A stretch of 64,000 nt of DNA, from NCBI GenBank assembly GCA_964035575.1, contig OZ037841.1:62001-126000 (forward strand), read 5' to 3'. The notes under the pieces were generated by a model. That model saw only the letters and a list, made by a program, of their open reading frames with translations, had not been told where the DNA came from and made no database searches. The translations under genes were made by a program, and so were the position numbers. Position 1 is the stretch's first letter, and every line of letters begins with the position of its first letter. This document shows positions 6,609 to 61,900 of the stretch, one piece after another. The DNA is from Rhynchopus sp. YZ270_cl-10 (taxonomy: Eukaryota; Euglenozoa; Diplonemea; Diplonemida; Diplonemidae).

Positions 6609-6611
6609 GGC

Positions 6612-18277: not shown

Positions 18278-21200
18278 CTAAGCAGCCATCCTACGGAGCA
18301 GCTCCTTGGCGTTCCGGAACCGCTCCGTCTCTCTCTTCTCCCGTCTCCCGTCACCGCTCACCTGCCTCTCCTCCCACCACTCCTGCAGGTCCTGCAGCGC
18401 TCTCTCCGGACTCAGGGGGGTGCTGCCCTGCTTCTGCCCACGCTCGGGGTAGAAGTGCCTCCGCCACTCATCTACACTGGCGGGCACAGTCTCTCCATAC
18501 CTCGCACAGGAAGCTACCTCCACAGGGGCGTCAGATCCTGCTGGGTGGGCGGTGGGTGCTCGCCTTTTGGCCGCAGCCTTCTCTGCGCGTTTTTCGGCGA
18601 CGCGCTGCTCCGCCTGTTCCCTCCTCTTCCTGGCGGATGCTTCCTTCCATGCACCCTTTTTGGCCGACCCCTCCTTTAATTCGCACAGGATAGCTGATGG
18701 CTTTTGTTGTTGAAAGCTGGTCCTCATTGCGGTCATTGTCGGTGCGGCGTTCTCGGTCATGTTAGTGTCGTGGTTGGTGTCGGCAACGTCGTCGTCGTTG
18801 TTGTCAGTGTTGGTGTCGTTGTTGTTGTTGCTGTTGTTGTTGTTGTTGCTGTTGCTGTTGCTGTTGCTGCGCCTTTCCATCTCCATGCGGCTGGACTCGA
18901 AGGCCTCATCCAACTCCTCTTCCTTAATCTCTACCTCGGCCAGTGGGGGTGCTGGGTTGCTGTTGTTGTAAAAGCTACCTCCCTGGCTGGTGGTCGATGT
19001 AGAAGGAGTGGTGGTGGCTCTGCGCCTGCGTGCTGCACATTTAGCGCCCTCCCCTGCGCAGGCCTCATTAGTACACCACTTGAGTGGGCACGCCGAACAG
19101 AACCAATGTGCAATGCTGTCCTCGAATACCGCAGCGCAGCCCTCGCACGTCACCATCTCTCCGTCTCTATCCTGCCTGTCACCCATGTACGACAGCGTTC
19201 CGGTGTTCATGCACTGCATCTCCACAGGGGGGATTTGTGGCTCCATCTTCATCATCATCCCCCTCGCCACTGCACCTACCACTAGAGGGGAGTAGTGCCC
19301 GGCGCCCACCGGTCCTTCGTGTAGCAGGGCTATCGCACCTCGTGGGGCTGCCGCCGGTCTCAGGAATGTCGTCTTGCTGTCCGCCCGCACCACCGCCACA
19401 ACTATCTGTAATGCACGGGAGAGACCAGCCAACGCCGTCACGTCCGCCCACGAACGAGTGTCCGGACTCCCCTCCACGCTCATCCAGCGCACCCACGACC
19501 CGAAAGTCGGTTCCGCCGAGTTCGCCAGGTCCCTGTCCTGCTTGACCCTCGTCACTGCAAGCTTCCGCAGGTCCCCAGAGGAGATGTCCCTCCACTCCCG
19601 TAGCAGCCACCTGACTGCATCAAAGGCGCAGTCCCCGACAGTGAACGGCACTGTTACCGTTGGGACTGTCATCCCGAGGGTGTTCCAAAGTTCTTCGTGG
19701 AACGTCTGTGGTCGAGTTGCGCTCCCATCCGCCGGGTTAGGGCAAGGTGGAGGGTCAGGGTGCTCCGCAGGCTCTTCGGGGTTCAGTGCGGACACGTCGA
19801 TATCGAATAGACCGTCGTCTGGTGCATAATCTATGGGAGGCAGGTGGTCGGGAGGAAGTCGGAAGTGTTCGTCCTCACCTGGCAACGGCGCGACGTCCAC
19901 CTCTATCCTCTCCCTGAGCGCGCCTGCTGTGTCCCCGCGCAGACACCCTCTGTCCCTGACTTGCCAATCATCCGCTGCAGCGTAGTGCCCATCCCCCACG
20001 CCCAACGACGCGACATCTCCTGCTTGCTGCCCAGCTTCCTGTCGGCTGCGAAGCGTAGCATTTGCGTCCAGATTGTGGATGCCGCAGGCCCGAACCCTCC
20101 CGTCGTCTCCAACGCGAATGGAGTGAAGGTGATCCGTGCAGCAATGCAGGCGGCCTGGTGCTTCCCCCTCTTCGCCGCCTCCGCCTTCGTTGCCGTGTAC
20201 CCCTTGGCCACCGCAGCACCCTGCACCATCGACTTGCACGTCGGGGTCCACACTGTCACGTCAATGGCCCGCCCCCGCGACTCGCCCACCCCCGTGGACA
20301 GGAAGAGGTCTGCTGGCTTCTTGTTCCCCAGTACCAGGTGTTGGGGTTCGAGAGTGGGGCCTAGACCTGCTTCGTTCGCAACGGAGTAGACGAAGTCGCG
20401 TACTGCGTTGTGCCTCAGAATGCGGTGTCCTCCCATCTTGCAGGCGAAAATGTGGTCGCCTCTCGCGTCCATGGCCTGCCCACACTGCCTGCACTGGACC
20501 CCGTCTGCGAAGAGAGGTAGGTGCATGCGGATCCTGCAGACCGCCTGGAACTGCTCCGGGGGGATGTGATGTTCCCACGTTGGGGGCGCCATGAGCCACG
20601 CGCCTGCATGCGGAAGGGAGAGGGAGTTCATCCGTGCCCGATCAGCCGCATCACCCTCCAGGTACAGTCGCCGCAGCTGTTCTTCGAGGATTCCTGCCGA
20701 TAGCTCCCTTTGTCGCACAGGGGTGGCTGGTCTCACCAGAGGGTCTACTTTGTCTGCTTCTGCTACATGTCGGTTGTGCTCCGTCGCAGTCTCTTTCCAC
20801 CCTTCCGCATCCCATTGGAACTCCGGGTCTAGCACCTTACACAACTCATGTAGCCCGCTCCGCGACCCCATCGCCGCGGCCGTCCAGTGGTCACGGATGC
20901 GACGGACTCCCATGCCTCCAGCTCTGCAGGGAAGTGCTGCCTGACGACGTGCCATCTCTGGGAGAAGCCCTTCCGTGTCACCCATCAACGAGGCGAGCGC
21001 AGCGTCGACCTCCTTGTCGTACTCCTTGAGGTACTGATGAGTACACGCATGTCCGATAGCACGCATGTAAAACACCATCCTCGCGAAGCCTTCACACTGG
21101 CGAAGAAGCGTCAACCCGACCTGTACGTCCTTGAGGTCCTTGAGGAGGCGGAGCTGCTCAGCGAACTCCTTCACCTGCTTGTCCATGTAGGACTCGCAAA

Positions 21201-23808
21201 ACTCGTCGTCACCGATAGGCGCCCCCAAGAACGCGAACCCACCGTACTGCACCTTCATGGCCTTGCCCTCACATGCTGCGCACGCACCGTCGTCCGGGTA
21301 TCCATGGGCACACACTGGCAAGCCCGCCTGTGCTAGGTCACGTGGCGTCTGCTGTCCTAGCGCAATCACCTCGCATTTCGCCAGCTTCACCCGCAGACCC
21401 ATCGCCAGGCTCCGCTCCTGCACCAGCTTCAACGCCCGTCCCACTGCTTCGGGTGGGCCCATGATGGTCCCGTCGTCCAGGTACCACAAGCTGGCATCAA
21501 TCCCCGGCATCGCCTTCACCTCCTCCGTCAGTTCCTTGATCCCTAGGGAGAAAAGAAGCGGTCCTGCCGGGTCACCCTGCTGTGCCCCTCGTTGCGACTG
21601 GATGAGGTCGTCGCCGTGCAGGAGGGAAGTCGGCCTGCCGTAACACCACTCGATCCATGGGGAGATGGTGGGGAGGTACTTTCGAGTAGCCGCGAGGAAG
21701 GTGGACCGGTGGATGCTGTTGAAAGCGTTTTCATAGTCCACGAGGACTATCACCTTGTTCTTCCCTAGGTTGCGTTTCACGTAATCCGCCACCACCATTG
21801 TAGCAGCCTCCAGTCCACCATCCACCGCCACCCCTACTTGGCGACCAGGGAGAAGCTTGTCCCGCGCCTGCGTCCGGACTGATCCCACTTCAATCTTGCT
21901 CACCACCCGACGAAGTGTGTTGCCTGCAGATATGGGGCGGACATCCGTTTCACCTTTCTTCAGGGCGACGAGCGTGGCTCCGGCAAGAAATTCTGCTGCC
22001 TCAGGTGGGGCCTGGCCTCTTCGCAATAGGTCCAGGACTAGCGTCATGAGGGGGAGGAGGTTGAGGTCAGGGTGTTTGACCATCCATTCCTTCAAATGGT
22101 CGCCCCTGAGACCGAATGGGCCTGGTGATGATCCCTTCGACATGCTCTTGATGGCCTTCAGGGCGTCGATGGGCTTCAGGGGTTCGAGGGCAACGTGCGC
22201 AGTGGTGTTTGCCACCTGTGGGGCCTCCTCCGGGTGCTTCGCCCTCAGCTTCGCTGTCGTCTCTATCGTAACGGGCGCAGTACCGCCTTTGTGGAGACGA
22301 CTCATCCCTGCTGCGAGCCTACCGTTCCGGACTTCAGTGACACACGCTTTCTCCCTCTCCTCCTTCGTCGGCTCCTTCCGCTCCTTGCCCGGCCCACGCC
22401 CAGGAAGAGATCGAGTCGCTGCAGACCACATCGCCGCAATTTCCCCCTGCGACCACTCCGTCACCTCCGCCTCCCGCTGTGCCACCACCTTCTTGCTGAT
22501 GTTCGCACCTCCCCGTTTTCTGGACAACACGAGTTTTGCGAACATGCAAAGCCTCTTCCAGCTGTTCTCGTCGTTGCAGCCAGCTACGTCTTCCAACACC
22601 TTCGCGAACTCCACCGCCGCCGCCCGGTCAATCGCTTTGGGCACGGTGTCGTGGGTCGGGATGGGTGCTGCCGCGATCTCATACCAGTCCGGCATGTCGC
22701 GGTCGTCCACTTCCTGCGCCGGTGTGCGGATGGTGGGTGACGGGCGTGGCACCGCCTGTACCAGCCTCGAGCATTGCAGGCACGTCTCGTTCTTCGCTGC
22801 TCGGATGCCGTCACACACACCACATTGACCCAGGCCGAACTTCCGCAGAGTGTCGTGCGGAATGTGGTCTCCCTCTGCTAGGTGGCCAGCGATATGTGCG
22901 CGTAGCCCTGGACCGGATAAGGGGATGTCCCGGTGGAACCGGCTTCCCTGGCAACACGGTACTGGGCAGTAGAGGAGGGGGGAGTCCCCTTCCAGTGGAG
23001 AAGTCGCGTCCTTCGTCATGCCGGGAATCGGAGACACCGCCAGCCGGGATGGGATGAGCTCTGCAATGGGGGCGGCATTGGCTAGTGCGGAAGCCTGTGC
23101 CGGGTCCATCTGCACCTGCTCGTAGTGTTCCCCAATCAGCGATATCACCCTCACCTCCCGTGGCTTCTTCTTTTGTGTCTTCTTCTTCGACTGGCGTTCC
23201 CTGTTCACCACCACCATGGGGCACGCCCCCGGCTGCACAACCAGGATCGTCAACGACCATGTCATGGCTATGTGGTGTAGCGTCAGCAGGTCACCCCAAG
23301 CGTCTCCTTCCACCCCTGCCACCCACGTGGAGAATTCAGCCTCCGTGTCGAAGTGTCTTCTGAGGCCGCGCTTCTTCTCGGTCGTCAACGCACTCCTGGC
23401 CAGCTCTTTGCGTTCGTTGGCTACGTCCAGGTAACTGCCCATCTTGCCCATGAGGGAGACGTACATGCAGTTCCCTTGCATGTCGTTGGCGATGCGCTTC
23501 CCTCCATTGCGTTCTAGCAGCGCATCGACCTCCGCCTTGCCCAGTACATTGCCGTCATCTGCCCCCCCACGCATCGCCCCTGGCTCCATTCGGACTGTCC
23601 CCTGCTTACGGCTCTGCCACCTCTCAGCACTCCTCTTGTAAATGAGAAAGAAGCGCCGGCTGCGTCTCCTCCAGTGCCTGCGGTACCGTCTGGGCCGCCT
23701 CGGTGGGAAGAGCAGCCCTGACACCATCACAGCCATGACCAGCGCGTAGACCCACATAGCCCCCACAATTGTGGTCCACCTGGCCACCTGCTCGTATGAC
23801 GGTAACAT
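18278..23808 (-). pseudogene. LINE A1 polyprotein: OTU, Zn finger, RT, RLE, OTU
   Basis: About 1,840 residues read from ATG 23808-23806. Order: hydrophobic segment at 11-34, then a very basic RRPRRYRRHWRRRSRR-type stretch; OTU-like domain with Cys114 (GNCMYVSL) and His228 (GEHYEQV); C2H2-type finger (CPVPCC...HIAGH) and a Cys cluster (CGVCD...CLQC); reverse transcriptase with Asp691 (VDYENAFN), SQRGAQQGDPAGPLLFS and YLDD 776-779; Cys-His knuckle CRQCG...GDHIFACK...RHN; restriction-like endonuclease with PADLF (Asp1167) and IDVTVW (Asp1183); a second OTU-like domain (GDCAFDAV, GHYSPL, 111 residues apart); another Cys cluster; an acidic and N-rich tail. One frameshift near 19950 separates the endonuclease from the second OTU domain. 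In A2 the same region is open, so the A1 shift is a copy-specific defect. RT and nuclease would copy element RNA into a nicked target; the OTU role is unknown. Confidence 0.85.
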
Positions 23809-23848
23809 TGTCTGTGTGACGGGGAACCACTGCAGGATCTCGTCCTCC

Positions 23849-26800
23849 GCTTCCTCGGTGGCTCCACGTGGTCCGGCTTCACGTCCCTCTTGCGCTTCCC
23901 CTGCTGCTCCTCCGACCGGTCTGGAGCAGGACGACTCATATCGTCGTCAGGGTTCGCATCATCACAGAGAGGTTCCACGGCCCCTGCACTGCGGCGTCCA
24001 AACCGGTCCATGTCCTCTGCAGACGGTGCCACATCTACCTCCACACACGGCTCCCGCTTCAGGGTGGCAATCCCTACACACATAGCACCCCGCTCCAGAA
24101 AGGAAGATGCGACCTTTTTCTGGTACGCCACCGCAATGCTCTCCCGGATGCGCAACTCTGCCGACCCTGTCAGGTGCGACGTCTGTCCCGTCGTCAGGCC
24201 TCCAAGCTGCGCAATCAAGAGGTTCGCCTCGTCGCCTGCACCCCCGAAGGCTTCAAACACAATAGGGGAGAACTTGGTGTTGATCTTGTTCAAATCCCGC
24301 TCGTGCTTCTCCCGTTTGACCTGGCCCTGGTTCTTCGCCGACCAGCCCACAAACTTCGAGGCCCCTGTTCTGTAGGAAGGCAAGGTGGGGCACACGTGGG
24401 TGATGTCCAAACAACGAGGTCCATTTTCCGCCACTCCTACTGGGAGGTAGACGTCGCCTGGCCGCTTCTTCGACTCCAAATCCACTCTCACGGTCTCCTC
24501 CAAAGCAGGGTCCAAGCCCGCCCCTTGAGCCGCTCTGTACACCGAATCCCGCAAGGCGTTGTGGCGGGCGACGCGGTGTTTGGCGTAGGGGCAGCCAAAG
24601 GTGTGGTCGCCAAAGGAGTCCATGACAACCCTTTTCTGCCCCCCCTGACATGCCGAGCAAGTCGTTCCCTCCGCATGGATGGCCACCCCTAGTCGGAAAC
24701 GGGTCACAACCGCAAAGTCCGCTGAAGACATCTGGTTCCTTGCTGAGGGTGTCGCCGTGAGGTACGTCCCAGAAAGCGGCAGGAGAAGGGACTTCATCCG
24801 TGCTCGGTCTCGCATGCAGAGCTGTTGCATCAACTTGTCTGCCTGGGCGTCAATCACCGCAGACGACAGACTCTGCTGCTCCAGGATCTTCTTCGGCTGA
24901 GCCCTGTCCACGTGAAACGCCACCGGTACCCTGGAGTTGTACTCCTCAGCCGCGCTGTTCCATCTCTCCTCATCCCAGGTGAACGCAGGGTCCAAGGCCT
25001 GCGACAGTTGCAGGTTCCCTGACTGAGAGGCGAGGGACGCAGCCGTCCGATGGTCCACTGTGCGACGGATACCCAGCCCCCCAAGCGCCACAGGAAGCGC
25101 CGCCTGCGCCCTTGCCAACTCCGGCAGCGCCCCATCCGGGTCATGCAGAAGCGCAGCCAGGCACCTGTCAATCAGGTCGTCAAAAGCCGTCAGGTACTCC
25201 GCGCACTGTGGGATCCCCCGCATGTAGAACACCATGCGGCAGTAGCCTTCGCAGTATCTCAGTACGTAGAAGGCTGCCTGGGAGTCCCCGAGGTCCACAA
25301 GGGCTTCCAGGTTGCGGCGGGAATCGTCCACCTTCCGGGCCATGTACTCCTCGCAGAAAGCCGCAGACCCAATGGGGATGCCCAAGAAATCGAACCCATC
25401 CACATCCAACAGCCGAAACCCGCCTTCACCCATGGCGTCCTGTCCACCCTCGTTCAACGTGAACCCCACGGCCTCGAGATCCTCCTTGGAGACGCCACCA
25501 GTGGAGATGAGCTCACACTTGTTCGCGTTCACCTCCAACCCCAGTTCGGAGCTACGAGTGCACAGAACCTGGTACGCCTCGAAAACCGCCTTAGGGGACC
25601 CCCTCAGAGAGCCGTCATCGAGGTACCACAAAGTCCCATCCAGGCCTGGGTGCCCCTTCAGCTCTAGCGCCATCTGGTGTATGGTCAGGGAGAAGAGAAG
25701 CGGGCCCAAGGGATCTCCTTGTTGAGCTCCGCGCTGAGACTTTATGGTATCCCCACCATAGAACAGGCTAGAGTGCTCCAGGTAACACCATCGCACCCAT
25801 GGGGCCAGCTCGGGGAGGTTGGCGTCGACCGCTCTTAGCATCGACAGGCGGTCTACGCAGTTGAACGCGTTACGGTAGTCAATTTTCAAAATGACTTTAC
25901 CTTTTCCGCGGTTGCGCCCGGCGTACTGCGAGATAACATCAGTCGCCACTGCCGCCCCCCTTGCCGTTGCCACCCCCACCTGGTTCCCTCGAAGAAGAAG
26001 CGTCCTAGCAGGCACCCGCACTCGCGCCGACAGAATCTTTCCCACCAGTCTGCGGAGAGTGTCCCCAACCGCAATCGGACGCACGTCCTCCTCCAGGCCC
26101 GGCCCCTTTGCAGGCTTCCGGAGAGCCACCAAGTTAGCGCCGGCGAAGAACTCAGCCACCTCCACTGGAGCATTTCCTCGTGCCAAAGACGTCAACACTG
26201 CGGCCAGCGCTGCCAAAGTTCCCTTAGCCCGCCTCTGTAGGCAAAGTGTACGAAGGTGCGCGCCCGTCACGTTCGAGGGACCCGCCGCCGATGACTTCGG
26301 CATGCTCCGCAGGGCCTTCATCACCTCCACCACTGTCACCGGTGGGACCTCCTGAGGCTGTGGCCAATCCGCCTGCTCCAGGGCCTTGGCATCAGCTGTG
26401 GCTGGGTGCTTCGTCTGAAGCTTTTCCAGCGTCGCCGGTGTCTGTGGGGCGAGGCCGTCGCTGGTAGCGCATGACATGGCCTGGCTCGGGAGTCCTGCTC
26501 TCGCTTTGGCTATGGTGCGCTTCCGTCTCCCTTCGTCAGTGTCTTCATCCGACCACCCAGAGGGCCTTGGCTTCCGCTCCTCTACCGTTTGCTCCCACAG
26601 GGCGACATACTGGCCAGCCTTCCAAGCCTCCAAGTCCTTCCCCCAGGTGCTCGTCAAACGTCGCTCCTGGTCCTTGCCCCCTCGCTCTGTCCGTGTCCGG
26701 TGCAACACTGTGAAGAACAGTGCAAGGCGCTTCCAGGCCACCTCGTCCTGGTACTCCAGGATGTCCATGAGGACCCTCAGGAAGAGCTCGCTGTACAGCT

Positions 26801-28478
26801 GCAGGTGTTTGTCTGGGCACCCGCCCTTCAGCTGGATCCTGGTGGTCCCCATGACTTCAAAGGAGGGGAGGTCATCCTGATCTGTCAGCATTCCTCGACT
26901 GGAGGGAGACGGAGCGGTGAAGCCTTCTTCGCCAAAGTGCACCGTACAGGTGTTGCAGACCTCCTTGCTCTGCGGCAATAGCATGTCGCACTGATCGTTC
27001 GCACAGCGCGACATGCCCAAGTGGCCCAACAGCTCGTCGGGGATGTACGCTCCATCCGCCTGGTGGCGACGCATGTGCTGCAGCAAGCCCTTACGAGACA
27101 GGCCCCCGACCGCATCACTCGAAGACAAAATTCCCGCTCTGCATCCATCAAAGGGGCAGAACACCCGATCCGCATTGATGTGTCCCAGCTTGGTAGCCAG
27201 GGGGGCGGTGGTGGTGGTGTTGGTGGGGATGATGCCATCCAAATGCGCTGTGTCCAGCACTGCCTGCCGAGCCTCCTTCCTCATCTTCTCTGCCATCCCC
27301 TCCTTGGTCTTCCCCACCTCCGGGACAAGCTCCACTGCCTCAAAGTGAGAGTCACAGAGAGCGATGACGACCGTGGGAAGTTTCGCTTGGAAGCTCTCCG
27401 CGTACGACTTGGCGACTCTTTTGCTACCAGGGGTGATGCGCACGAGGGGGTTCTCTTCCGACGCCTGCACTACCACGATGTTGATGCGGGATGCTGTCGC
27501 GGTGAGCTGAAGCCCCAAGTGGTTGAGGTGGGCCTCGCCGGTCACACCATTGGCAAACTCCGTCATGGCCTCCTGCGACCCCAGCACCTGCACCAGGCGG
27601 TTCGACACCTCCACTGCTGTGTCATACAGCTGCTTGCGCATTGCCCTCACGTCCGGCTGCGTGTCGTGGTCCCAGAGGTGTAGTGCCACATAACCACAAT
27701 CATTTGTGGACACGTTGGGGATGCGTTTAGCTCCAAACTTCGCCAGAGTCGCGTCCACAGACACCGCTTGCTCTGTATACGCAGGAGCGTTCACGTTTGC
27801 GCACCCACCGGTCAACGCAAACGGGGACAAGCTGATCGGGTGCTCCGGATCCGCAGGGGCAGGGCGCAGGTCCCAGGGCGTCACCGCTCGCCACAACAGC
27901 GACAGCAAGACCAGTAGGGACACCACCAGCATGCCAAATGCCATCCCGATCCTACGAGTCCACCTGCGTGCTGCCACACGGCGCACCTCCAAGAGAAGAA
28001 CCCAGCCAAGTGGGCGCGCGACGCCGACCAGTGCCACAAAACCCGCCAAACAACCACCTGCGGACCATGCAACCCACACCCACTCGGCTGCACACACCGA
28101 CAACTGACCCACCCCCATCACACTGGCCCTCACCAAGCTGGCAGCCACTCGGATCCCTCCGGTCCATCGGCGCACTCGCTCGCTCGCCCCTTCCAGCCAC
28201 CGCCATCCTCTCCGAACGCGGCACAGTCCCCGCAGCACACCCACCCCCAGCACCTCCGCGTCCCGAAAAAGCGCGCAACCCAAAACATGTGGCGCTGACC
28301 TCCCAAGCTCAGACCCCACAAAAACCAGAACCCAGATGGCCACACACTGCAAAGCACCTCTCAACGCATCGGCGACCCTGATCCTGCGGAAAACTGGGTG
28401 CGCTGCCGGAGAGGGCGGACGATTGCAGGGCGCCTTGCGCCGACGGAGCCTGCCCGCCTGTGACTTGGTCCAGTTCAA
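23849..28478 (-). pseudogene. LINE B1 polyprotein, 3' truncated
   Basis: About 1,543 residues of family-B protein, read from a TTG next to the insertion; no ATG start is preserved. Hydrophobic segments occur at about 36-58, 125-158 and 173-198 (MAFGMLVVSLLVLLSLLW), so the N-terminus may span a membrane. The OTU-like domain has Cys261 (STNDCGYVAL) and His378 (CDSHFEAVEL). Next come a C2H2 finger (CPFDGC...LLQHMRRH) and a Cys cluster (CANDQCDML...CNTC). Reverse transcriptase has Asp867 (KIDYRNAFN), SQRGAQQGDPLGPLLFS and YLDD 952-955. The knuckle is CSACQG...GDHTFGC...RHN, and the restriction-like endonuclease has PGDVY (Asp1342) and LDITH (Asp1358). It ends at EPPRKR, where the A1 sequence begins in another frame. 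This is the only B copy here with the complete N-terminal half and RT on one frame. Confidence 0.85.
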
Positions 28479-28514: not shown

Positions 28515-29731
28515 CTCTTTTTTGTACTTGGACTAGTTTTTTATGAGAATAGAAAGGAAAAAGGAAGAAATGGAGAAGACAATAAAGACAATAAAATGAA
28601 CAGGAAATGGAAAAGGAAAAAGGAAATGGAAAAATGAAAAGGAAAAAATGATGACCAAAAATGGTCGGTGTTTCAAGTTTTGTATAAAAGGCGGGCGAAG
28701 AGTACGGTAGAGCCAACAGAGTTTTATACAAAACAAGAAACTGCATTATGTGTTTGTTTTTTATTCTTTTTGATCAATTTGAATACACAGGCGTCACACT
28801 TCTGGGGCAAAAAAAGGAAAAAAAGAAGACCTAATCCTCCTTACTTAAAAGAAGGGAAGGGAGAATAAAAAACACATTGCCTTTGCTTTGTTGTCTGCAG
28901 AATGGTTTGTTTTAGTGCCTCCCCTGGAAAAAGAAAAATGGATTCCACTTGGTAAAAATAGCACACCTGTTGAACACACGTCAGGCCAGGAACAGAAGAA
29001 AAGCAAACGCTTCCACGAATGGAAGCAAAAGAAAAGTGTGGTGAAAAAACCCTTTTGGCCAAGGTGGTCTTGACTCTGTCTACAAACTTTGGGGATGAAT
29101 GAAAAAATGACACTGAATAAATAACAGAGAGTGGGCGGGTAAGCCACTTCTCCGAGCTAAACACAAAGTAAACACCCTCCACCCATCTGATCCCGCCCAC
29201 AAACACAAACAATCACGACAGAAACCAAGACAGGCAGAGGATGACCAGGGTAGGTTTTACTTGAACAGCGAACCTCTGCCTTGATACTTCACACGCTCAG
29301 CAGACGAGTTGCCACAACTCTCCAGACCTGCTGCAAAACAGGCCTGCACCTTTCACCGCATTTCGCTTCGTGCCCCTCATCTGGCGCACTACTGACGGGG
29401 GACGCCCCATGTAGGCACATCGGTAGGATTTCGTCTTAACATAGTTTTTTGTGTAAAAAAAAATGAACCCCTAAAAAAAAATGAACCCCTAAAAAAAAAT
29501 GAACCCCTTTTTTTAAAAAAAAATGAACCCCTTTTTTTAAAAAAAAATGAACCCCTTTTAAAAAAAAATGAACCCCTTTTTAAAAAAAAATGAACCCCTT
29601 TTTAAAAAAAAAATGAACCCCTTTTTTAAAAAAAAATGAACCCCTTTTTTAAAAAAAAATGAACCCCTTAAAAAAAAATGAACCCCTTTTAAAAAAAAAT
29701 GAACCCCTTTTAAAAAAAAATGAACCCCTTT
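28484..29731 (-). mobile_element. Poly(A)-tailed non-coding retroelement E, copy 1
   Basis: Flanked by the exact 11-bp duplication gttcaaggacc (28473-28483 and 29732-29742). On the minus strand it begins with an array of about a dozen units of aaaggggttcatttttttt (29459-29731), continues through a body of about 950 bp and ends in poly(A) (T at 28484-28514). The tail has an internal A6, then a short extension (ctagtccaagtac), then the final A tract. No reverse transcriptase is encoded, so it depends on another element, plausibly the resident LINEs. A 123-residue frame in the body looks fortuitous. It could be a large SINE, a deletion derivative of a LINE, or a retrocopy of an RNA. Confidence 0.8.
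29459..29731. repeat. About 20-bp tandem array at the 5' end of E copy 1
   Basis: Around thirteen units of aaaaaaaatgaaccccttttt with variable A and T run lengths. E copy 2 has only one unit, so the array length varies between copies, as in LINEs whose 5' UTR monomers differ in number. Confidence 0.9.
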
Positions 29732-29779: not shown

Positions 29780-30739
29780 AAAAGGGGTTCATTTTTTTTT
29801 ACACAAAAAACTATGTTAAGACGAAATCCTACCGATGTGCCTACATGGGGCGTCCCCCGTCAGTAGTGCGCCAGATGAGGGGCACGAAGCGAAATGCGGT
29901 GAAAGGTGCAGGCCTGTTTTGCAGCAGGTCTGGAGAGTTGTGGCAACTCGTCTGCTGATCGTGTGAAGTATCAAGGCAGAGGTTCGCTGTTCAAGTAAAA
30001 CCTACCCTGGTCATCCTCTGCCTGTCTTGGTTTCTGTCGTGATTGTTTGTGTTTGTGGGCGGGATCAGATGGGTGGAGGGTGTTTACTTTGTGTTTAGCT
30101 CGGAGAAATGGCTTACCCGCCCACTCTCTGTTATTTATTCAGTGTCATTTTTTCATTCATCCCCAAAGTTTGTAGACAGAGTCAAGACCACCTTGGCCAA
30201 AAGGGTTTTTTCACCACACTTTTCTTTTGCTTCCATTCGTGGAAGCGTTTGCTTTTCTTCTGTTCCTGGCCTGACGTGTGTTCAACAGGTGTGCTATTTT
30301 TACCAAGTGGAATCCATTTTTCTTTTTCCAGGGGAGGCACTAAAACAAACCATTCTGCAGACAACAAAGCAAAGGCAATGTGTTTTTTATTCTCCCTTCC
30401 CTTCTTTTTAAGTAAGGAGGATTAGGTCTTCTTTTTTTCCTTTTTTTGCCCCAGAAGTGTGACGCCTGTGTATTCAAATTGATCAAAAAGAATAAAAAAC
30501 AAACACATAATGCAGTTTCTTGTTTTGTATAAAACTCTGTTGGCTCCACCGTACTCTTCGCCCGCCTTTTATACAAAACTTGAAACACCGACCATTTTTG
30601 GTCATCATTTTTTCCTTTTCATTTTTCCATTTCCTTTTTCCTTTTCCATTTCCTGTTCATTTTATTGTCTTTATTGTCTTCTCCATTTCTTCCTTTTTCC
30701 TTTCTATTCTCATAAAAAAAAAAAAAAAAAAAAAAAAAA
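29780..30739 (+). mobile_element. Poly(A)-tailed non-coding retroelement E, copy 2
   Basis: Opposite orientation to copy 1 and about 50 bp away. Flanked by the exact 10-bp duplication tcctgcccac (29770-29779 and 30740-30749). It starts with a single aaaaggggttcattttttttt unit, then has the same body as copy 1 with only a few differences (for example at 29958 and 30550), and ends in a plain A tract at 30714-30739. Independent duplications show two separate insertions and not one inverted duplication. Confidence 0.85.
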
Positions 30740-37755: not shown

Positions 37756-40700
37756 CGACTTTTTTTTGTTCCACATCAAACTGGACAGGGCAAGGGGGGT
37801 ACGTTTATAATGCACATGAAAGGCGCTTGGTCCGAGCGAAGCGAGGGCCAAAAGTCTTACAATCAGTACATGTGCCGGTTTAGTTAGAACGAGGCACAAA
37901 AGTGAATTAAACGAGGGAGATATTTGTCATCAGCATGTCGCCCTATTATGTATCGTTGTTTGCCGAGCGAAGCGAGGCATACAACTATATTTAGCTCTAT
38001 GACAATTTGGGATAAAGGAGGGGTGAACATTAACACGGGAGAGGCAGGGGTGAATATAGACTGTCCAGTCTGTGTGGTTTTGCTGTATTTCCAGTATTGG
38101 TGCCCAGCTGGTTCTGGAGGGGAGGAAGGGGCGGGATGGGGCTTTCTTTTTACAATACGAAGTTCCTTTCTTGTTACTTTTGTTTTGTCTCTTGTAGTCT
38201 TTTTTGTTTGGATGATTAACGCCAGTAGCGACCCCCCATGGAACTCGTAGGGGATGGGGTGGGGGAAAAAATCTCCGTCGCTTACTCCTAGGCCGACGCC
38301 CACAGACAAACCGCCTCCTTGGCTTACTCCTGACGTTTTCTGTGAGGGGGAAGATTTGGAATTTACATACAATGGGCTTGACACCAGGGGGATTACACAC
38401 ATGTATCTAATGGGAGGGGTTGGGGGTAAAAAGGAAACAGGGAACTAAACAGGTGTTGCTACACACAAAAGTTGGGGTGGGGGAAAATAACAGAGAAGGG
38501 AAGGGCAACAGTGCCCACATAAACCACAATCACAACCAATCGCGAGGCCCTTCTATTTGAAGGTCGCCTCCATCATCAGCACCAGGACCGCCCTAAGCGC
38601 CCCGTACTGACTCGTCTGCCGTCCTCCGACGCGCCCCAGCTCCTCCCGCTGATCCCACCACGCGTCCAGCGCCTCGTACGCCACCTCCGGTGCCAAGGGA
38701 GTCATTCCCTCTCGCCTGGTCCCTCCCCTGGGGAAGAAGCAGTCCGCCCACTCTTCGACATTTCTCGGCACCCTGTCCCCTTCCTTCTGGCTGTGTGGGA
38801 CTAACCCTTTCGCCTCCACATCCGACCCTCGCGAGATAGGGGGAGAAGGCCGCCTTGCTGTGGTCTCCGCAGACCTGTCCTCCACTACACCGGAGCGACG
38901 AGTGTGGTTCCCCTGCGCCCGCCGCGAAGTCCCAAGGGTGGTCAGCTTCGTCCTTCTTTCCGCGTGGGACTTAGCCGTCCATCCACCAGTCTTCGCTGAA
39001 CCCAAGTGGTGGTCACCAGTCAGAGCTGTTGGTGTGGTGTTGTAGCTCTGCTCTGATGGCCCCCAGACGAAGGATTCTGCTGCGGTTGCGGTGTTGTTGT
39101 CCATGGTGGTGTCGTGGTCGGCGCAGTCGGCGGAATCCTCCTCATCCATAACCTCCTCCTTCACCTCCGTTGCCGCGTCCTGTGGGGGAGCTGGGTTGCT
39201 GTTGTAGTAGCTACCTCCCACTGTCTGCGATGTTGTCGGCTGAACTGGCTGAACTGGCTGAACTGGCTTTGCCCTCAGCACACACTTTGCGTTGGCGCTC
39301 CCACATCCCTCACACCATGTGCGCTCGCAGGAACTACAAAACCAGTGGGGGACACTACATTCGGTGATGAGTGCGCAGTTTTCGCACGTGAGCAATTCCC
39401 CCTGTCTCCCCGGGCGCTCCTCCATCCGTGACAGCGCTCCGGTGCTGTGGCACTGCATCTCTGGAAGGGGGGTGTCGGGGGCAAGGCTTCGCAGATATGC
39501 AAACGTGTTGTCTGTCATGCATAACGGCGAGAAGTGGCCAGCCTCGTGAGCTCCTGTGTGCAGCACTGCTACGGCCCCGTTCGACTTGCTGGCTGGTCTA
39601 TGGATGTGCACCTTAGAGTCCGATGACACGACCGCCACAATGACTACCTGCAAAGCCCGTGCCAGACCCGCCAGTGCTGTCTGGTCCGCCCACGACCTGC
39701 GATCCCTGTTCCCTGCCAGGCTCATCCATCGCACCCAGGTCGCGAGGTCGGGCATCGCATTTCTCGCCAGGTCAGCATCTCTCTTCACTCTCTCCACCGC
39801 CAGGGACCGAAGGGTCGACGATGTCACCACCTTCCAGCTCCGCACTGACCAGCACACTGCGTCGAACGCACAGTCTCCTACTCGGAACGGCACGGGCACC
39901 TGCGGTCGGGACAGCCCCCACTTCACCAAGTTGGCCTCCAGTTCGCTGTGGGGGGTTGGGTCCTGTGCTGCTGTCTCTGGCGCCGTTTCCTTCTCGTTGC
40001 CTGTCTCTGGCTCCTCCTCCGCACTCACCCTGATGTCTCCCTGGTGGTCGTCTGTCACTTCCAGGTTAGGTAGATGGTCGGGGGGCAAGCGTATCAAGTC
40101 CCCCTCTTCCGGGTCGACGGTGGGATCTAAGTCCACACGCTCTCGCAGAGGACCCCTCAGGCAACCAGTCAGAGACCCTCGATCCGTCGCGGCCTTCCCG
40201 ATCTGTCGCTGCAGCGTCGTCCCTAGCCCCCAATTCCACCTCTGTGACATCTCCACTCTGTTCCCAAGCTTCCTGTCCGCTGCGAAACGGAGCATCTGCT
40301 GCCATATCGACGCCGCCGCGGGTCCCAGACCTCCTGTGGTCTCCAGGGCGAAGGGTGTGAACGCCAGCCGCTCCGCCGCACACGCGTCACCATGCTTCTT
40401 CCTCTTGGCAGTTTCCGCCTTCGTCGCCGCGTACCCCTTCGCGACTGCGGCACCCTGCACCATCGACGCTGACGTCGGCGTCCACACAGTCACATCGATA
40501 GCTCGTCCTCTCGACTCCCCGACCCCTGTGGACAGCAGAATGTCAGCGGGCTTGTTGTTGCCCAGGATGAGGTGGTTGGGTTCCAGGATGGGGCTCAGAC
40601 CTGCCTCATTTGCTGCTCCATACACATAATCGCGTACTGAGTTATGTCGCAGTATACGATGCCCACCCATTCTGCAGGCGAAGATGTGGTCCCCCCTGGT

Positions 40701-42988: not shown

Positions 42989-43152
42989 TGAGCAACTATT
43001 TATTTAAAAAAATCGATTTTTTGGTCAAATCCCCCTGGTGGTGAGGGGGTGTGTGTGTGTGTGTGTGTGGGTGTGTGTGGGTGTGCTGTGTGTGGGTGTG
43101 TAGTGTGTGTGGTGTGGGTGGCGCACATCTCTATAGTAAAGACTAAAAAACT

Positions 43153-46200: not shown

Positions 46201-49200
46201 TGACAGCAGAAGTGTGCGTCCGACGCATCGAAGAGCTTGCTGCATTGTTCGCACTGCAGGAAAGTGTTCGACGCCTCCGCCTCCCTCGCTCCCACAAAAG
46301 CCATGGGGCGCTCTGACTGGCACTCCCCCTTACCACCTGTGGCCTCAAAAGACAGGATGTGCTGCTGCAGAGCCGGGTCCATGGTGAGGGGCTCGTAGTG
46401 TCCCGGGATACTGCCGGATCCATCTGCCGCATCCTGGTCACCCGAGTGGAGGAGAAGGACCACTGCCTTAGGCCGTTTTCTTGGCACCATCAGAGAAGGG
46501 CGGGCGAACTCGTTGAGGATGACCACAGATACCTCAAGAGCCTCCCCTGCCCCCGCCACTGCAATGGCATCCGCCCACGTACGCTCGTCTCCTCTGTCCC
46601 CACTCGTCATCAGCCGCTGCCAGACCCCAAAATTAGGGACAGCCGCACTCGACAGATCAGCGCGGCCCTGGACCTTCTTCACTGCCGCCTGGCGCAGACC
46701 CTCCACCGACAAATCCGTGCGCCCAGTGGCGAAGAGCAAAGCCTCAAAAGCACAGTCCCCCGCCACAAACGACCAAGTCACCTTCGAGGCTCCCAGCTTG
46801 GCCGCCTGTTCCGTCGCCCGAGGCCTCTGCGCTGCCGGGCACTCACGCAAAAACTCCCACTCACGCACCACATCGAGACCCGGCCCTTCCGGAATCACGG
46901 TAGCCGAATCGAACCTCCCGGTCCGCTTCCTCGGTGGCTCCACGTGGTCCGGCTTCACGTCCCTCTTGCGCTTCCCCTGCTGCTCCTCCGACCGGTCTGG
47001 AGCAGGACGACTCATATCGTCGTCAGGGTTCGCATCATCACAGAGAGGTTCCACGGCCCCTGCACTGCGGCGTCCAAACCGGTCCATGTCCTCTGCAGAC
47101 GGTGCCACATCTACCTCCACACACGGCTCCCGCTTCAGGGTGGCAATCCCTACACACATAGCACCCCGCTCCAGAAAGGAAGATGCGACCTTTTTCTGGT
47201 ACGCCACCGCAATGCTCTCCCGGATGCGCAACTCTGCCGACCCTGTCAGGTGCGACGTCTGTCCCGTCGTCAGGCCTCCAAGCTGCGCAATCAAGAGGTT
47301 CGCCTCGTCGCCTGCACCCCCGAAGGCTTCAAACACAATAGGGGAGAACTTGGTGTTGATCTTGTTCAAATCCCGCTCGTGCTTCTCCCGTTTGACCTGG
47401 CCCTGGTTCTTCGCCGACCAGCCCACAAACTTCGAGGCCCCTGTTCTGTAGGAAGGCAAGGTGGGGCACACGTGGGTGATGTCCAAACAACGAGGTCCAT
47501 TTTCCGCCACTCCTACTGGGAGGTAGACGTCGCCTGGCCGCTTCTTCGACTCCAAATCCACTCTCACGGTCTCCTCCAAAGCAGGGTCCAAGCCCGCCCC
47601 TTGAGCCGCTCTGTACACCGAATCCCGCAAGGCGTTGTGGCGGGCGACGCGGTGTTTGGCGTAGGGGCAGCCAAAGGTGTGGTCGCCAAAGGAGTCCATG
47701 ACAACCCTTTTCTGCCCCCCCTGACATGCCGAGCAAGTCGTTCCCTCCGCATGGATGGCCACCCCTAGTCGGAAACGGGTCACAACCGCAAAGTCCGCTG
47801 AAGACATCTGGTTCCTTGCTGAGGGTGTCGCCGTGAGGTACGTCCCAGAAAGCGGCAGGAGAAGGGACTTCATCCGTGCTCGGTCTCGCATGCAGAGCTG
47901 TTGCATCAACTTGTCTGCCTGGGCGTCAATCACCGCAGATGACAGACTCTGCTGCTCCAGGATCTTCTTCGGCTGAGCCCTGTCCACGTGAAACGCCACC
48001 GGTACCCTGGAGTTGTACTCCTCAGCCGCGCTGTTCCATCTCTCCTCATCCCAGGTGAAGGCAGGGTCCAAGGCCTGCGACAGTTGCAGGTTCCCTGACT
48101 GAGAGGCGAGGGACGCAGCCGTCCGATGGTCCACTGTGCGACGGATACCCAGCCCCCCAAGCGCCACAGGAAGCGCCGCCTGCGCCCTTGCCAACTCCGG
48201 CAGCGCCCCATCCGGGTCATGCAGAAGCGCAGCCAGGCACCTGTCAATCAGGTCGTCAAAAGCCGTCAGGTACTCCGCGCACTGTGGGATCCCCCGCATG
48301 TAGAACACCATGCGGCAGTAGCCTTCGCAGTATCTCAGTACGTAGAAGGCTGCCTGGGAGTCCCCGAGGTCCACAAGGGCTTCCAGGTTGCGGCGGGAAT
48401 CGTCCACCTTCCGGGCCATGTACTCCTCGCAGAAAGCCGCAGACCCAATGGGGATGCCCAAGAAATCGAACCCATCCACATCCAACAGCCGAAACCCGCC
48501 TTCACCCATGGCGTCCTGTCCACCCTCGTTCAACGTGAACCCCACGGCCTCGAGATCCTCCTTGGAGACGCCACCAGTGGAGATGAGCTCACACTTGTTC
48601 GCGTTCACCTCCAACCCCAGTTCGGAGCTACGAGTGCACAGAACCTGGTACGCCTCGAAAACCGCCTTAGGGGACCCCCTCAGAGAGCCGTCATCGAGGT
48701 ACCACAAAGTCCCATCCAGGCCTGGGTGCCCCTTCAGCTCTAGCGCCATCTGGTGTATGGTCAGGGAGAAGAGAAGCGGGCCCAAGGGATCTCCTTGTTG
48801 AGCTCCGCGCTGAGACTTTATGGTATCCCCACCATAGAACAGGCTAGAGTGCTCCAGGTAACACCATCGCACCCATGGGGCCAGCTCGGGGAGGTTGGCG
48901 TCGACCGCTCTTAGCATCGACAGGCGGTCTACGCAGTTGAACGCGTTACGGTAGTCAATTTTCAAAATGACTTTACCTTTTCCGCGGTTGCGCCCGGCGT
49001 ACTGCGAGATAACATCAGTCGCCACTGCCGCCCCCCTTGCCGTTGCCACCCCCACCTGGTTCCCTCGAAGAAGAAGCGTCCTAGCAGGCACCCTTACGAG
49101 ACAGGCCCCCGACCGCATCACTCGAAGACAAAATTCCCGCTCTGCATCCATCAAAGGGGCAGAACACCCGATCCGCATTGATGTGTCCCAGCTTGGTAGC

Positions 49201-55600: not shown

Positions 55601-58600
55601 AAGATCAACACCAAGTTCTCCCCTATTGTGTTTGAAGCCTTCGGGGGTGCAGGCGACGAGGCGAACCTCTTGATTGCGCAGCTTGGAGGCCTGACGACGG
55701 GACAGACGTCGCACCTGACAGGGTCGGCAGAGTTGCGCATCCGGGAGAGCATTGCGGTGGCGTACCAGAAAAAGGTCGCATCTTCCTTTCTGGAGCGGGG
55801 TGCTATGTGTGTAGGGATTGCCACCCTGAAGCGGGAGCCGTGTGTGGAGGTAGATGTGGCACCGTCTGCAGAGGACATGGACCGGTTTGGACGCCGCAGT
55901 GCAGGGGCCGTGGAACCTCTCTGTGATGATGCGAACCCTGACGACGATATGAGTCGTCCTGCTCCAGACCGGTCGGAGGAGCAGCAGGGGAAGCGCAAGA
56001 GGGACGTGAAGCCGGACCACGTGGAGCCACCGAGGAAGCGGACCGGGAGGTTCGATTCGGTCTCGATGTGGTGCGTGAGTGGGAGTTTTTGCGTGAGTGC
56101 CCGGCAGCGCAGAGGCCTCGGGCGACGGAACAGGCGGCCAAGCTGGGAGCCTCGAAGGTGACTTGGTCGTTTGTGGCGGGGGACTGTGCTTTTGAGGCTT
56201 TGCTCTTCGCCACTGGGCGCACGGATTTGTCGGTGGAGGGTCTGCGCCAGGCGGCAGTGAAGAAGGTCCAGGGCCGCGCTGATCTGTCGAGTGCGGCTGT
56301 CCCTAATTTTGGGGTCTGGCAGCGGCTGATGACGAGTGGGGACAGAGGAGACGAGCGTACGTGGGCGGATGCCATTGCAGTGGCGGGGGCAGGGGAGGCT
56401 CTTGAGGTATCTGTGGTCATCCTCAACGAGTTCGCCCGCCCTTCTCTGATGGTGCCAAGAAAACGGCCTAAGGCAGTGGTCCTTCTCCTCCACTCGGGTG
56501 ACCAGGATGCGGCAGATGGATCCGGCAGTATCCCGGGACACTACGAGCCCCTCACCATGGACCCGGCTCTGCAGCAGCACATCCTGTCTTTTGAGGCCAC
56601 AGGTGGTAAGGGGGAGTGCCAGTCAGAGCGCCCCATGGCTTTTGTGGGAGCGAGGGAGGCGGAGGCGTCGAACACTTTCCTGCAGTGCGAACAATGCAGC
56701 AAGCTCTTCGATGCGTCGGACGCACACTTCTGCTGTCACACGTGTGGTGGCTTGGCATGTCTGCACTGCGCTCAGGGGTCCAAGCACTGCCCTCTGTCGC
56801 AAATTGGCAGGGCGGAATATTTCAGTGCCCTGTCTTTTTTGCACTCGAATGTTCCGGCTCAGGCTGCCTCTGCGGAGGGGAGCGGAGACCCACCACCTAA
56901 ACGGGCTCCTTCTCCAGCAGTGCCAGCTCCCGAGGGCGAGGACGTCGAGGAGGTAGACATGCCAATGGCGGGCGAAGAGGGGCAGCAGGCAGAACAGAAG
57001 CAGCAGAAGCACGAGAAGCAACGGAAACAGCAGAAGCAGCAACAACAAAAGGCGGACCAGGTGAAGAAGGAAGCGTTGCAGCGTGCGTCGGACGCGTGGC
57101 AGCAAGCCCTGGAGGTACGGCGGGAGCATCGTCGGTCGTGGGGACCGGATTTGGCCGCGCTTCGGGGCACTTTTGGCGACCGCCAGCAGGAGTTGAGTCG
57201 TTTCCTGGAGGAACAGAATGTGCGTCTGGACCAGGCGAAGGCGGCGGACAGGCATCGTGTGGAGGAGCTGACCGCCAGGCACAAGCGGGAACTCGCAGAG
57301 GACGCGAAGAAGATGCATGCGCAGTACTTGGAAGACTGCGATCGGCACCCCGAAGCAGGAGAGTCGCTCCGGGCGGAGTATGACAGGCAACGCTGCGAGA
57401 GGCATTACGCCATCGCAGCTAAGCATGAGTCGGAGCAGAAGGCGACCACTCTGTTGTTGACGGCGGTGAACCTCTCCCGACAGCTGGAGGCAGAACGCAT
57501 GGTGGCATACGGGCGGTGCTTTGGGGTGGTGTGCGAAGGGCGGCTATTCCTCCCCTGCCATGCGGTGCGGAGAGCGGTGGGCGACGACCCTGAAGGACTC
57601 GAACCTGACTGTGTCGGCGACTGGATGGCTCTCTTTGGTCCTCAAGGTGCTTCTCCGTGCCCGGGCGAGTTCCTGTACTGCTGGGCGACACAGCAGCCGT
57701 GGAGTGGGAACGGGGAGGGGGACGGTGATTGCCCGGAGTCGGTGGTCGCCCGTCAGGCGGTTAGGAAGATAGCAGGGGAGGCCGGATACTGCGATACCTG
57801 GGGCAAGACCAGCGCGGTCATCGTCGTTCGGGAAGGCAGGGTCAGCTGGGGAACCCCTTCTCGGGATCAGCTGGAGGAGGAGGTGGGGCGACAGGCCGAG
57901 GCGGCAGACACCGAGGTGCGTGTGAAGGTGGAGGAGATGGATGATGATGAGCAGGAGCAGGAGGAGGACCTCGACACCGCGATGGAGGGGGCGGATCGCT
58001 CGCTTTCTCTGTCAGTGGAAGGCATCCCTGACCAGAAGAAGCAAGCGAGGGTGAGGGAATTGCTGAGGGCGCAGAGCGAGGCTTGGATGTGGACGGAGGA
58101 GGAGCGGACGGAGAGGGGGGGTCTTTTCCCGTGCCTCACCATGGGGTCGCCGGTGCCTTCTTCTGTGACGAAGTGGATCTCCCTGTTCCACTACCGTCAG
58201 GGAGAGAAACAGGATGGCAGACCCTTGTTGTCACTCCCCCTCTCTACCGCTACTTTCACTCAGTGGTATGAGGTGATGAAGGTGGTGGGTTTGCATGAGT
58301 GGTCGGTTCAGGAAAAGTGCAAGGCAAAGTCGACGTTGCATGCCCTGACGGACAACCGGAGCAGTAGGGGGCAGGCCTTTGCAGCGGAGAGTACAAGGAG
58401 GGAGAATGAGGCACGAGCGGCTCGAGAGGGAATAGGCCGACAACCTCAAGCCTCCTCTTCTTCTTCTTCTTCCTCCACCTCTGCAGGCCGTGGCACTACA
58501 ACCTCCATCGCCCAACCTGCAGTCTCCACTTCTTCCTCCTCCTCATCGGCAGGCCGTGGCAATGCAACCTCCTCCGCCCAACCTGCTCCTTCCCCAGCTC

Positions 58601-58993: not shown

Positions 58994-61900
58994 ACAAACT
59001 CTACTCTACTGCACAATCTATAAAAGTGGCCCAATGGCTCCTGATGCCACTGGCCTGGCTCTTAGACAGGTCTTACTCCGAGACTGCCCTCTACCCTCAG
59101 AGCCTCGTCCAAGGGGTAAGGGCCGTCGCTGGGGTAGACCCGTCCTAGCCAGCAGCCAACCAAAAATATTAACAAATAGGAAGGGGGGCGGAAAGGGGGG
59201 AAAGGGGGGGCAAACCCCAAAGGATGAAAAGAACAAAAAACACAAAATAAAAAGGGTTAAAAATAAACATGGGGCAAACTGTCATTCTCACACACTCTCA
59301 CCCTCTAACTCTCTAACTCTCTAATTCTTTTTATTCCCCTTTTTCCCCTTCCTTCCTCCGCTCTGTCTCCCCTTCTGTCCACCACCGCGACCATTGCGCC
59401 CTCTCTGCACCTCCTGGGGCGAGAGCACATGCTGCGTCGCTTGTGCCACTGCGTCGGTGAACACGTTCGACGTGTTGGACCTACCCTGAGCTGCATGGCG
59501 CTGGGGTCCTTTGGGAGCTGGGGAAGGAGCAGGTTGGGCGGAGGAGGTTGCATTGCCACGGCCTGCCGATGAGGAGGAGGAAGAAGTGGAGACTGCAGGT
59601 TGGGCGATGGAGGTTGTAGTGCCACGGCCTGCAGAGGTGGAGGAAGAAGAAGAAGAAGAGGAGGCTTGAGGTTGTCGGCCTATTCCCTCTCGAGCCGCTC
59701 GTGCCTCATTCTCCCTCCTTGTACTCTCCGCTGCAAAGGCCTGCCCCCTACTGCTCCGGTTGTCCGTCAGGGCATGCAACGTCGACTTTGCCTTGCACTT
59801 TTCCTGAACCGACCACTCATGCAAACCCACCACCTTCATCACCTCATACCACTGAGTGAAAGTAGCGGTAGAGAGGGGGAGTGACAACAAGGGTCTGCCA
59901 TCCTGTTTCTCTCCCTGACGGTAGTGGAACAGGGAGATCCACTTCGTCACAGAAGAAGGCACCGGCGACCCCATGGTGAGGCACGGGAAAAGACCCCCCC
60001 TCTCCGTCCGCTCCTCCTCCGTCCACATCCAAGCCTCGCTCTGCGCCCTCAGCAATTCCCTCACCCTCGCTTGCTTCTTCTGGTCAGGGATGCCTTCCAC
60101 TGACAGAGAAAGCGAGCGATCCGCCCCCTCCATCGCGGTGTCGAGGTCCTCCTCCTGCTCCTGCTCATCATCATCCATCTCCTCCACCTTCACACGCACC
60201 TCGGTGTCTGCCGCCTCGGCCTGTCGCCCCACCTCCTCCTCCAGCTGATCCCGAGAAGGGGTTCCCCAGCTGACCCTGCCTTCCCGAACGACGATGACCG
60301 CGCTGGTCTTGCCCCAGGTATCGCAGTATCCGGCCTCCCCTGCTATCTTCCTAACCGCCTGACGGGCGACCACCGACTCCGGGCAATCACCGTCCCCCTC
60401 CCCGTTCCCACTCCACGGCTGCTGTGTCGCCCAGCAGTACAGGAACTCGCCCGGGCACGGAGAAGCACCTTGAGGACCAAAGAGAGCCATCCAGTCGCCG
60501 ACACAGTCAGGTTCGAGTCCTTCAGGGTCGTCGCCCACCGCTCTCCGCACCGCATGGCAGGGGAGGAATAGCCGCCCTTCGCACACCACCCCAAAGCACC
60601 GCCCGTATGCCACCATGCGTTCTGCCTCCAGCTGTCGGGAGAGGTTCACCGCCGTCAACAACAGAGTGGTCGCCTTCTGCTCCGACTCATGCTTAGCTGC
60701 GATGGCGTAATGCCTCTCGCAGCGTTGCCTGTCATACTCCGCCCGGAGCGACTCTCCTGCTTCGGGGTGCCGATCGCAGTCTTCCAAGTACTGCGCATGC
60801 ATCTTCTTCGCGTCCTCTGCGAGTTCCCGCTTGTGCCTGGCGGTCAGCTCCTCCACACGATGCCTGTCCGCCGCCTTCGCCTGGTCCAGACGCACATTCT
60901 GTTCCTCCAGGAAACGACTCAACTCCTGCTGGCGGTCGCCAAAAGTGCCCCGAAGCGCGGCCAAATCCGGTCCCCACGACCGACGATGCTCCCGCCGTAC
61001 CTCCAGGGCTTGCTGCCACGCGTCCGACGCACGCTGCAACGCTTCCTTCTTCACCTGGTCCGCCTTTTGTTGTTGCTGCTTCTGCTGTTTCCGTTGCTTC
61101 TCGTGCTTCTGCTGCTTCTGTTCTGCCTGCTGCCCCTCTTCGCCCGCCATTGGCATGTCTACCTCCTCGACGTCCTCGCCCTCGGGAGCTGGCACTGCTG
61201 GAGAAGGAGCCCGTTTAGGTGGTGGGTCTCCGCTCCCCTCCGCAGAGGCAGCCTGAGCCGGAACATTCGAGTGCAAAAAAGACAGGGCACTGAAATATTC
61301 CGCCCTGCCAATTTGCGACAGAGGGCAGTGCTTGGACCCCTGAGCGCAGTGCAGACATGCCAAGCCACCACACGTGTGACAGCAGAAGTGTGCGTCCGAC
61401 GCATCGAAGAGCTTGCTGCATTGTTCGCACTGCAGGAAAGTGTTCGACGCCTCCGCCTCCCTCGCTCCCACAAAAGCCATGGGGCGCTCTGACTGGCACT
61501 CCCCCTTACCACCTGTGGCCTCAAAAGACAGGATGTGCTGCTGCAGAGCCGGGTCCATGGTGAGGGGCTCGTAGTGTCCCGGGATACTGCCGGATCCATC
61601 TGCCGCATCCTGGTCACCCGAGTGGAGGAGAAGGACCACTGCCTTAGGCCGTTTTCTTGGCACCATCAGAGAAGGGCGGGCGAACTCGTTGAGGATGACC
61701 ACAGATACCTCAAGAGCCTCCCCTGCCCCCGCCACTGCAATGGCATCCGCCCACGTACGCTCGTCTCCTCTGTCCCCACTCGTCATCAGCCGCTGCCAGA
61801 CCCCAAAATTAGGGACAGCCGCACTCGACAGATCAGCGCGGCCCTGGACCTTCTTCACTGCCGCCTGGCGCAGACCCTCCACCGACAAATCCGTGCGCCC

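Follow-up and report, generated by a model that had tools for sequence, protein, structure and literature searches.

The window analysed here, a stretch of 64,000 nucleotides from Rhynchopus sp. YZ270_cl-10 (contig C9:62001-126000 of a 152.4-Mb genome in 126 contigs), harbors several copies of long retrotransposons, two of which, A1 and B1, adjoin one another at positions 18278-28478. Families A and B are non-long terminal repeat (non-LTR) retrotransposons of the restriction-like endonuclease (RLE) type, with R2 proteins as the nearest reverse transcriptases (RTs) of solved structure. Their placement among the RLE long interspersed nuclear elements (LINEs) is based on the RT, the CCHC and nuclease motifs, the zinc finger and the poly(A) tails, all of which fit this class. 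Specifically, Pfam RVT_1 was matched by A1, B1 (Table 1) and A2 (E-value = 3e-18), and a PDB profile search of the RT returned R2 proteins (E-value = 3.9e-16) and LINE-1 (E-value = 2.2e-13) as the nearest structures. A CCHC and a PD-type nuclease motif, recognized by pattern only and with PAD or PGD in the place of PD, follow the RT in families A, A', D and B; our first C2H2 and CCHC patterns missed B, and looser ones detected both in the B copies of the window. The 3' ends of A, A' and B carry poly(A), no LTRs were seen at these elements (no dedicated LTR search was made) and the 2,137-aa open reading frame (ORF) of family A, to which the search for an apurinic/apyrimidinic endonuclease (APE) was confined, gave no Exo_endo_phos match at E ≤ 0.1.

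A preliminary description of the interval had placed one OTU-like cysteine protease domain near the N-terminus (OTU-N) and a second one after the endonuclease (OTU-C) in both families. Its coordinates and residue numbers are correct (Cys114/His228 in A1, counted from a start at 23808; Cys261/His378 in B1, from 28478) and both families do have the paired order, but neither of the two copies is whole inside the interval. Comparison with other copies, with junctions drawn by eye, showed that B1 is truncated before OTU-C, its junction with A1 lying at about 23846, and that A1 is devoid of its 5' end and its 3' untranslated region; the fusion, within 23700-23950, leaves B1 without its end and A1 without its beginning. 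The frame encoding OTU-C of A1 (18278-20260) also differs from its RT frame (19903-23946). B-family OTU-C is present in three further copies of the window (44145-49283, 55942-58794 and 59321-64000), while A2 (38553-42995), formerly counted in family A, represents a separate family, A', with about 50% identity to A1 in both OTU domains.

Elsewhere in the genome, a single open frame is retained by copies of B (L069), A (L070), D (L071) and A' (L072), with lengths of 2,651 (within the stretch read), 2,137, 2,220 and 2,173 aa, respectively, measured between flanking stop codons or up to the limit of the sequence read and not from a start codon. All four full ORFs present the same order: hydrophobic region, [L/M]xGG motif, OTU-N, zinc finger, RT, CCHC-RLE, OTU-C and zinc finger. 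The paired OTU arrangement around RT and nuclease is thus real and not an artefact of broken copies, and the single ORF is, judging from sequence, a polyprotein with two predicted OTU-fold cysteine protease domains flanking RT and nuclease. The similar Cys-to-His spacings noted before hold in the open-frame copies as well (OTU-N/OTU-C: A 114/111, A' 115/112, D 113/108, B 117/118). In all four families the frames run through trinucleotide repeats ahead of the hydrophobic segment, which would give Ser/Asn-rich sequence.

Table 1. Positions of element features in the window and, in the last two rows, of APE-type LINEs on other contigs.
Feature	Position	Strand	Basis
A1 hydrophobic segment before [L/M]xGG	23701..23778	-	Kyte-Doolittle in intact L070, carried over by residue count
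A1 AMRGG, putative ubiquitin-tail-like cleavage site	23563..23577	-	Motif
A1 OTU-N core, GNC..EHYEQ	23116..23475	-	Pfam OTU sub-threshold; profile match to OTUs
A1 C2H2-type zinc finger	22882..22968	-	Pattern
A1 reverse transcriptase	21340..21960	-	Pfam RVT_1, E 5.8e-16
A1 CCHC and restriction-like endonuclease motif	20251..20493	-	Pattern
A1 OTU-C core, GDCAF..GHYSPL, frame other than that of RT	19283..19636	-	Pfam sub-threshold, profile, motif
A1 zinc finger after OTU-C	19037..19147	-	Pattern
B1 hydrophobic segment before [L/M]xGG	27873..27959	-	Hydropathy in L069, carried over by residue count
B1 ALTGG, putative ubiquitin-tail-like cleavage site	27804..27818	-	Motif
B1 OTU-N core, NDC..SHFEA	27336..27704	-	No Pfam hit alone; aligned with A, A', D; in nine-family profile
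B1 C2H2-type zinc finger	27063..27158	-	Pattern
B1 reverse transcriptase	25374..26093	-	Pfam RVT_1, E 1.1e-15
B1 CCHC and restriction-like endonuclease motif	24396..24659	-	Pattern
A2 (family A') OTU-C core	39522..39878	-	Modelled, pLDDT 60; Foldseek and VIA match OTU folds
B2 OTU-C core	46386..46760	-	Alignment, profile, motif
B3 OTU-C core	56179..56553	+	Motif
B4 OTU-C core	61562..61936	-	Motif
APE-type LINE with N-terminal OTU (L091/L094)	C11:1054500-1060000
APE-type LINE with N-terminal OTU (L092/L095)	C8:1409850-1414200

Concerning the identity of the two domains, an outcome without any OTU-fold match did not occur, and the evidence supports both regions as OTUs. Pfam OTU was matched by OTU-N above the cut-off in A', below it in A and D and not in B, and by OTU-C at sub-threshold level only; in a scan of four frames of the window, A1 gave a sub-threshold OTU match and the other three frames none. 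Against the ordinary OTUs of the same genome, in which there are at least 88 Pfam OTU matches, profile comparison scored 97.2% for OTU-N (nine-family profile) and 96.0% for OTU-C, compared with 44.7% (E-value = 2.2e-4) for OTU-N against OTU-C. It is therefore unlikely that the pair arose by recent duplication of a single OTU, and this reading was discarded, since each resembles ordinary OTUs more than its partner. In the PDB, the OTU-N profile had three matches, all of them OTUs and all weak (E-values of 0.18-0.44), the OTU-C profile had five, none of which is an OTU, and a single-sequence search with OTU-N of B gave one unrelated match. An Ulp1-like protease was not indicated, the Pfam and profile results giving OTU. 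Among five OTU-C models, the one from A2 matches OTU folds, and the other four have a pLDDT (predicted local distance difference test score) of 37-57. Both domains are under purifying selection, with ratios of nonsynonymous to synonymous substitution (dN/dS) of 0.18-0.35, and Cys and His are retained in all nine families for OTU-N and in the seven families read for OTU-C.

The two domains differ two residues after the His. An acid or Asn at this position (His+2) serves as the third catalytic residue in OTUs, and some OTUs place that residue elsewhere. OTU-N has the acid in 9/9 families and OTU-C in 1/7, which, together with the zinc-finger pattern behind OTU-C, would be expected of a degenerate, non-catalytic OTU retained as a ubiquitin-binding or structural module. 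We consider such a degeneration rather unlikely: the conserved Cys and His of OTU-C speak against it, and when six canonical OTUs from the same genome were inspected by eye, an acid at His+2 was seen in L091 alone, so the third catalytic residue may lie elsewhere.

A [L/M]-x-G-G motif precedes OTU-N in all nine RLE families, with its second Gly 32-39 residues before the Cys. With the following residue, it reads AMRGG|A (A), ALAGG|A (A'), AMRGG|N (D), ALRGG|N (E), TLRGG|N (F), QLCGG|C (G), QLVGG|C (G2), ALTGG|C (B) and ALSGG|C (B58), where G and G2 are called RLE from their long frames and the likeness of their OTU-N to that of B (39% for G; aligned) and not from RT or nuclease, and E, F and B58 are represented by sequence read at both OTUs only. 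The motif was present in 58 of 60 loci of A, A' and B, the exceptions (L048, L049) being matches that begin inside the query. Both Gly and the Leu/Met are conserved while neighbouring residues vary, resembling the ubiquitin-tail type of site used by some viral polyprotein proteases. Further [LM]xGG occurrences in the four full ORFs (none in A or A', one in D at residue 467, two in B at residues 76 and 734) were rejected as additional sites because their positions are not common to the families, and no conserved site of this type was found near OTU-C. The motif also occurs outside RLE elements: in other types of OTU ORF (L002 with L003-L005, L093, L091 and L097), MxGG lies 31-35 residues ahead of the Cys, and the frames of L091 and L092 extend into APE nuclease and RT (L094, L095). 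APE-type LINEs with an N-terminal OTU thus also occur in this genome, in the orders OTU-APE-RT-RNase H and OTU-APE-RT; a RLRGG between nuclease and RT in one of them (L094) was dropped as a candidate site, its relative L096 having His for Leu.

By analogy with viral polyprotein sites, we find it quite possible, if short of probable, that OTU-N cleaves itself at [L/M]xGG and frees the RT/nuclease from a leader, OTU-C being more probably directed at ubiquitin. OTU-N would then be a processing protease, cutting most likely in cis after the motif upstream of its own Cys. The product set free would be the RT/nuclease protein, because a hydrophobic stretch (Kyte-Doolittle 19-residue mean of at least 1.6) precedes the site in 4/4 full ORFs, so that the discarded leader may be membrane-held. 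OTU-C would act on ubiquitin, removing or binding it, either on the protein of the element itself or at target chromatin; this more tentative part of the proposal is derived from the missing site nearby and the mostly missing acid at His+2. The preliminary description had envisaged two cuts in the polyprotein or a defence against host ubiquitin signalling. There is one candidate site, before OTU-N, and a second cut is unsupported, while countering host ubiquitin signalling is, of the two domains, most plausible for OTU-C. A somewhat unlikely alternative is that both OTUs are deubiquitinases that shield the element's protein from degradation or strip ubiquitin off target chromatin, no cut being made and xGG serving as a structural N-cap. 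Both domains do resemble deubiquitinases by fold or profile, the nearly fixed distance from GG to Cys would suit a structural element, and the nairovirus OTU takes no part in autoproteolysis according to the accessible part of PMC3968130. This explanation sits poorly with a motif of ubiquitin-tail type whose Leu/Met and paired Gly stay constant amid variable neighbours.

Alternatively, the motif could be the site at which translation of an ancestral OTU ORF began (Met-x-Gly-Gly), with the leader untranslated or added later, as P4, the Leu/Met position, is encoded by ATG in A, D, L002, L003, L091, L093 and L097, and as L091 and L097 have unlike sequences upstream of the motif. We regard this as improbable, for P4 is CTG, TTG or TTA in 7/9 RLE families and the Gly codons vary, and upstream of the motif the substitutions are those of a protein-coding region: dN/dS is 0.16 between D and F (pN/pS interval 0.08-0.41, 46 codons) and 0.37 over the leader common to A' and B (interval 0.29-0.61, 181 codons). 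On these codons and substitution patterns, the motif is argued to be internal coding sequence. DNA identity between B and B58 is 88/96 before the Ala codon of the motif and 32/54 over the next windows. The leader that A' (L072) and B (L069) have in common, which in B1 spans about 27873-28478, is 76% identical in protein although the OTU-N domains are only 32% identical; A' and B both lie mostly near contig ends, and family A, sister to A', differs in its leader and is less restricted to them.

Several observations weigh against cleavage by OTU-N at the motif. The predicted OTU-N model is poor (pLDDT of 36), so a reach of the GG site to the Cys is a presumption, and OTU-C, with Cys and His kept in 7/7 families, could be a protease too. 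For other pairs the pN/pS interval before the motif includes neutrality (D-E2, dN/dS 0.62, interval 0.23-2.12; E2-F, 0.47, 0.24-1.13), in one case barely (B-B58, 0.28, 0.06-1.03), and the D-F comparison lacks a drop of identity at the motif. In the motif-bearing APE-type and ORF1-like families P4 is Met, and therefore a start codon is possible there. The motif is missing from L001 and L006, from the 37 residues available of L092 and from L099, where the catalytic Cys is replaced by Ser. Finally, when the 60-residue stretches were shuffled, the motif was rare in eight of nine (0.6-18% of shuffles; A 13%, A' 18%); any one sequence could thus bear it by chance, and its weight rests on the shared place.

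The genome was searched with OTU-N of B and A and with OTU-C of A and B, and copy numbers are lower bounds because 150 candidates were scored in each search. Genome-wide, OTU-N and OTU-C shared a frame in 147 of the 229 matches compared: 8/13 in A, 33/42 in A', 21/24 in D/E/F and 85/150 rows in B and B-like, the last including fragments and five more distant relatives. This comparison leaves out OTU-N rows of A with at most 30% identity, the last 17 OTU-C rows of A (B-like, 35%) and short pieces (C66:207166, C41:1413510, C2:835090, C43:741774, C1:307891, C23:1636658). B copies are nearly identical, with 100% over the OTU-N query in the first 105 of the best 150 rows, and the many such copies suggest recent activity of these elements. 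Usable rows at most 200 kb from a contig end were 119/123 for B, 32/35 for A', 7/13 for A and 0/13 for D/E/F, against a genome share of about 33% within that distance; these counts omit 27/150 rows of B, 7/42 of A' and 11/24 of D/E/F (contig size not known, place beyond 250 kb) and keep rows within 250 kb of the start of unsized contigs, a bias in favour of nearness to an end. No relative was found among IMG/VR viral contigs. A wider scenario, in which a leader-tethered polyprotein is cut by OTU-N at a ubiquitin-tail mimic, a separately acquired OTU-C handles ubiquitin during integration and the leader module is exchanged between families and associated with chromosome ends, appears doubtful as a whole.

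Apart from the retrotransposons, an 807-aa frame at 6609-9032 of the window is PIF1/Helitron-type helicase-like by eye, and a perfect 626-bp inverted repeat occupies 28847-29472 and 29783-30408, its arms 310 bp apart. A variant of the GGGTTTGC-type 8-bp satellite lies at the start of the window (1-1300), and this satellite type was seen at 5/8 contig ends read (L075-L077, L079, L080), with the G-rich strand opposite to the usual telomere orientation. No claim of telomere identity is made for (CCCCATA)n, which begins contig C9 and is also internal in C20 near 44.5 kb, among the matches listed.

LINE proteins are, to our knowledge, generally treated as unprocessed. If the proposed cut takes place, a non-LTR retrotransposon would process its polyprotein in the manner of a virus, and a conserved ubiquitin-tail-like site beside a protease of deubiquitinase fold would provide a simple and testable case of polyprotein maturation in such an element. 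The suggested recent activity may permit its study in the living host.

R2 elements share with those described here the zinc finger before the RT, the CCHC and nuclease motif after it, the poly(A) tails and the nearest RT structure, but the present ORF is about twice as long, has an OTU on each side and bears a hydrophobic leader; we know of no OTU domain in R2. Dualen/RandI elements are LINEs with an OTU-like protease. No paper containing both words, OTU and Dualen, was found among the open-access papers searched, and OTU domains in RLE LINEs or paired OTUs in any LINE were absent from the open-access matches listed, a scope that excludes Repbase, subscription papers, preprints and the protein databases of other eukaryotes. 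A paper on Ginger transposons (PMC2836005), which contains the word OTU 17 times, was among these matches. As far as these searches reach, the paired arrangement is new, and the conserved [L/M]xGG motif before OTU-N, as read from sequence, is a new observation. Dualen encodes both APE and RLE in the accessible part of PMC4640811, whereas the A ORF lacks an Exo_endo_phos match. In the same portion of that source, NeSL and Utopia-1_TSP are RLE elements that, like the present families, have a cysteine protease at the N-terminus, but it is Ulp1-like and single, and nothing is mentioned there after the nuclease. Helentrons combine an OTU-like protease and an endonuclease in one transposon protein (accessible text of PMC6431247) but, as DNA transposons of the rolling-circle type, have no RT. 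Arterivirus PLP2 and tymovirus PRO are OTU-fold proteases that both process polyproteins and remove ubiquitin, according to the available sections of PMC3968130 and PMC5695851, where the sites given are a putative RLIGG for arterivirus, LXGG for coronavirus and KLNGA and RLLGS for tymovirus. The arterivirus site resembles [L/M]xGG, whereas those of tymovirus are without terminal GG; moreover, these are RNA viruses whose proteases, in the same sections, cut downstream of themselves, while the putative site here is upstream. Processing by OTU-N would offer a reason for OTU domains in such elements and a parallel to the ubiquitin-tail-like sites of arteriviruses and coronaviruses.

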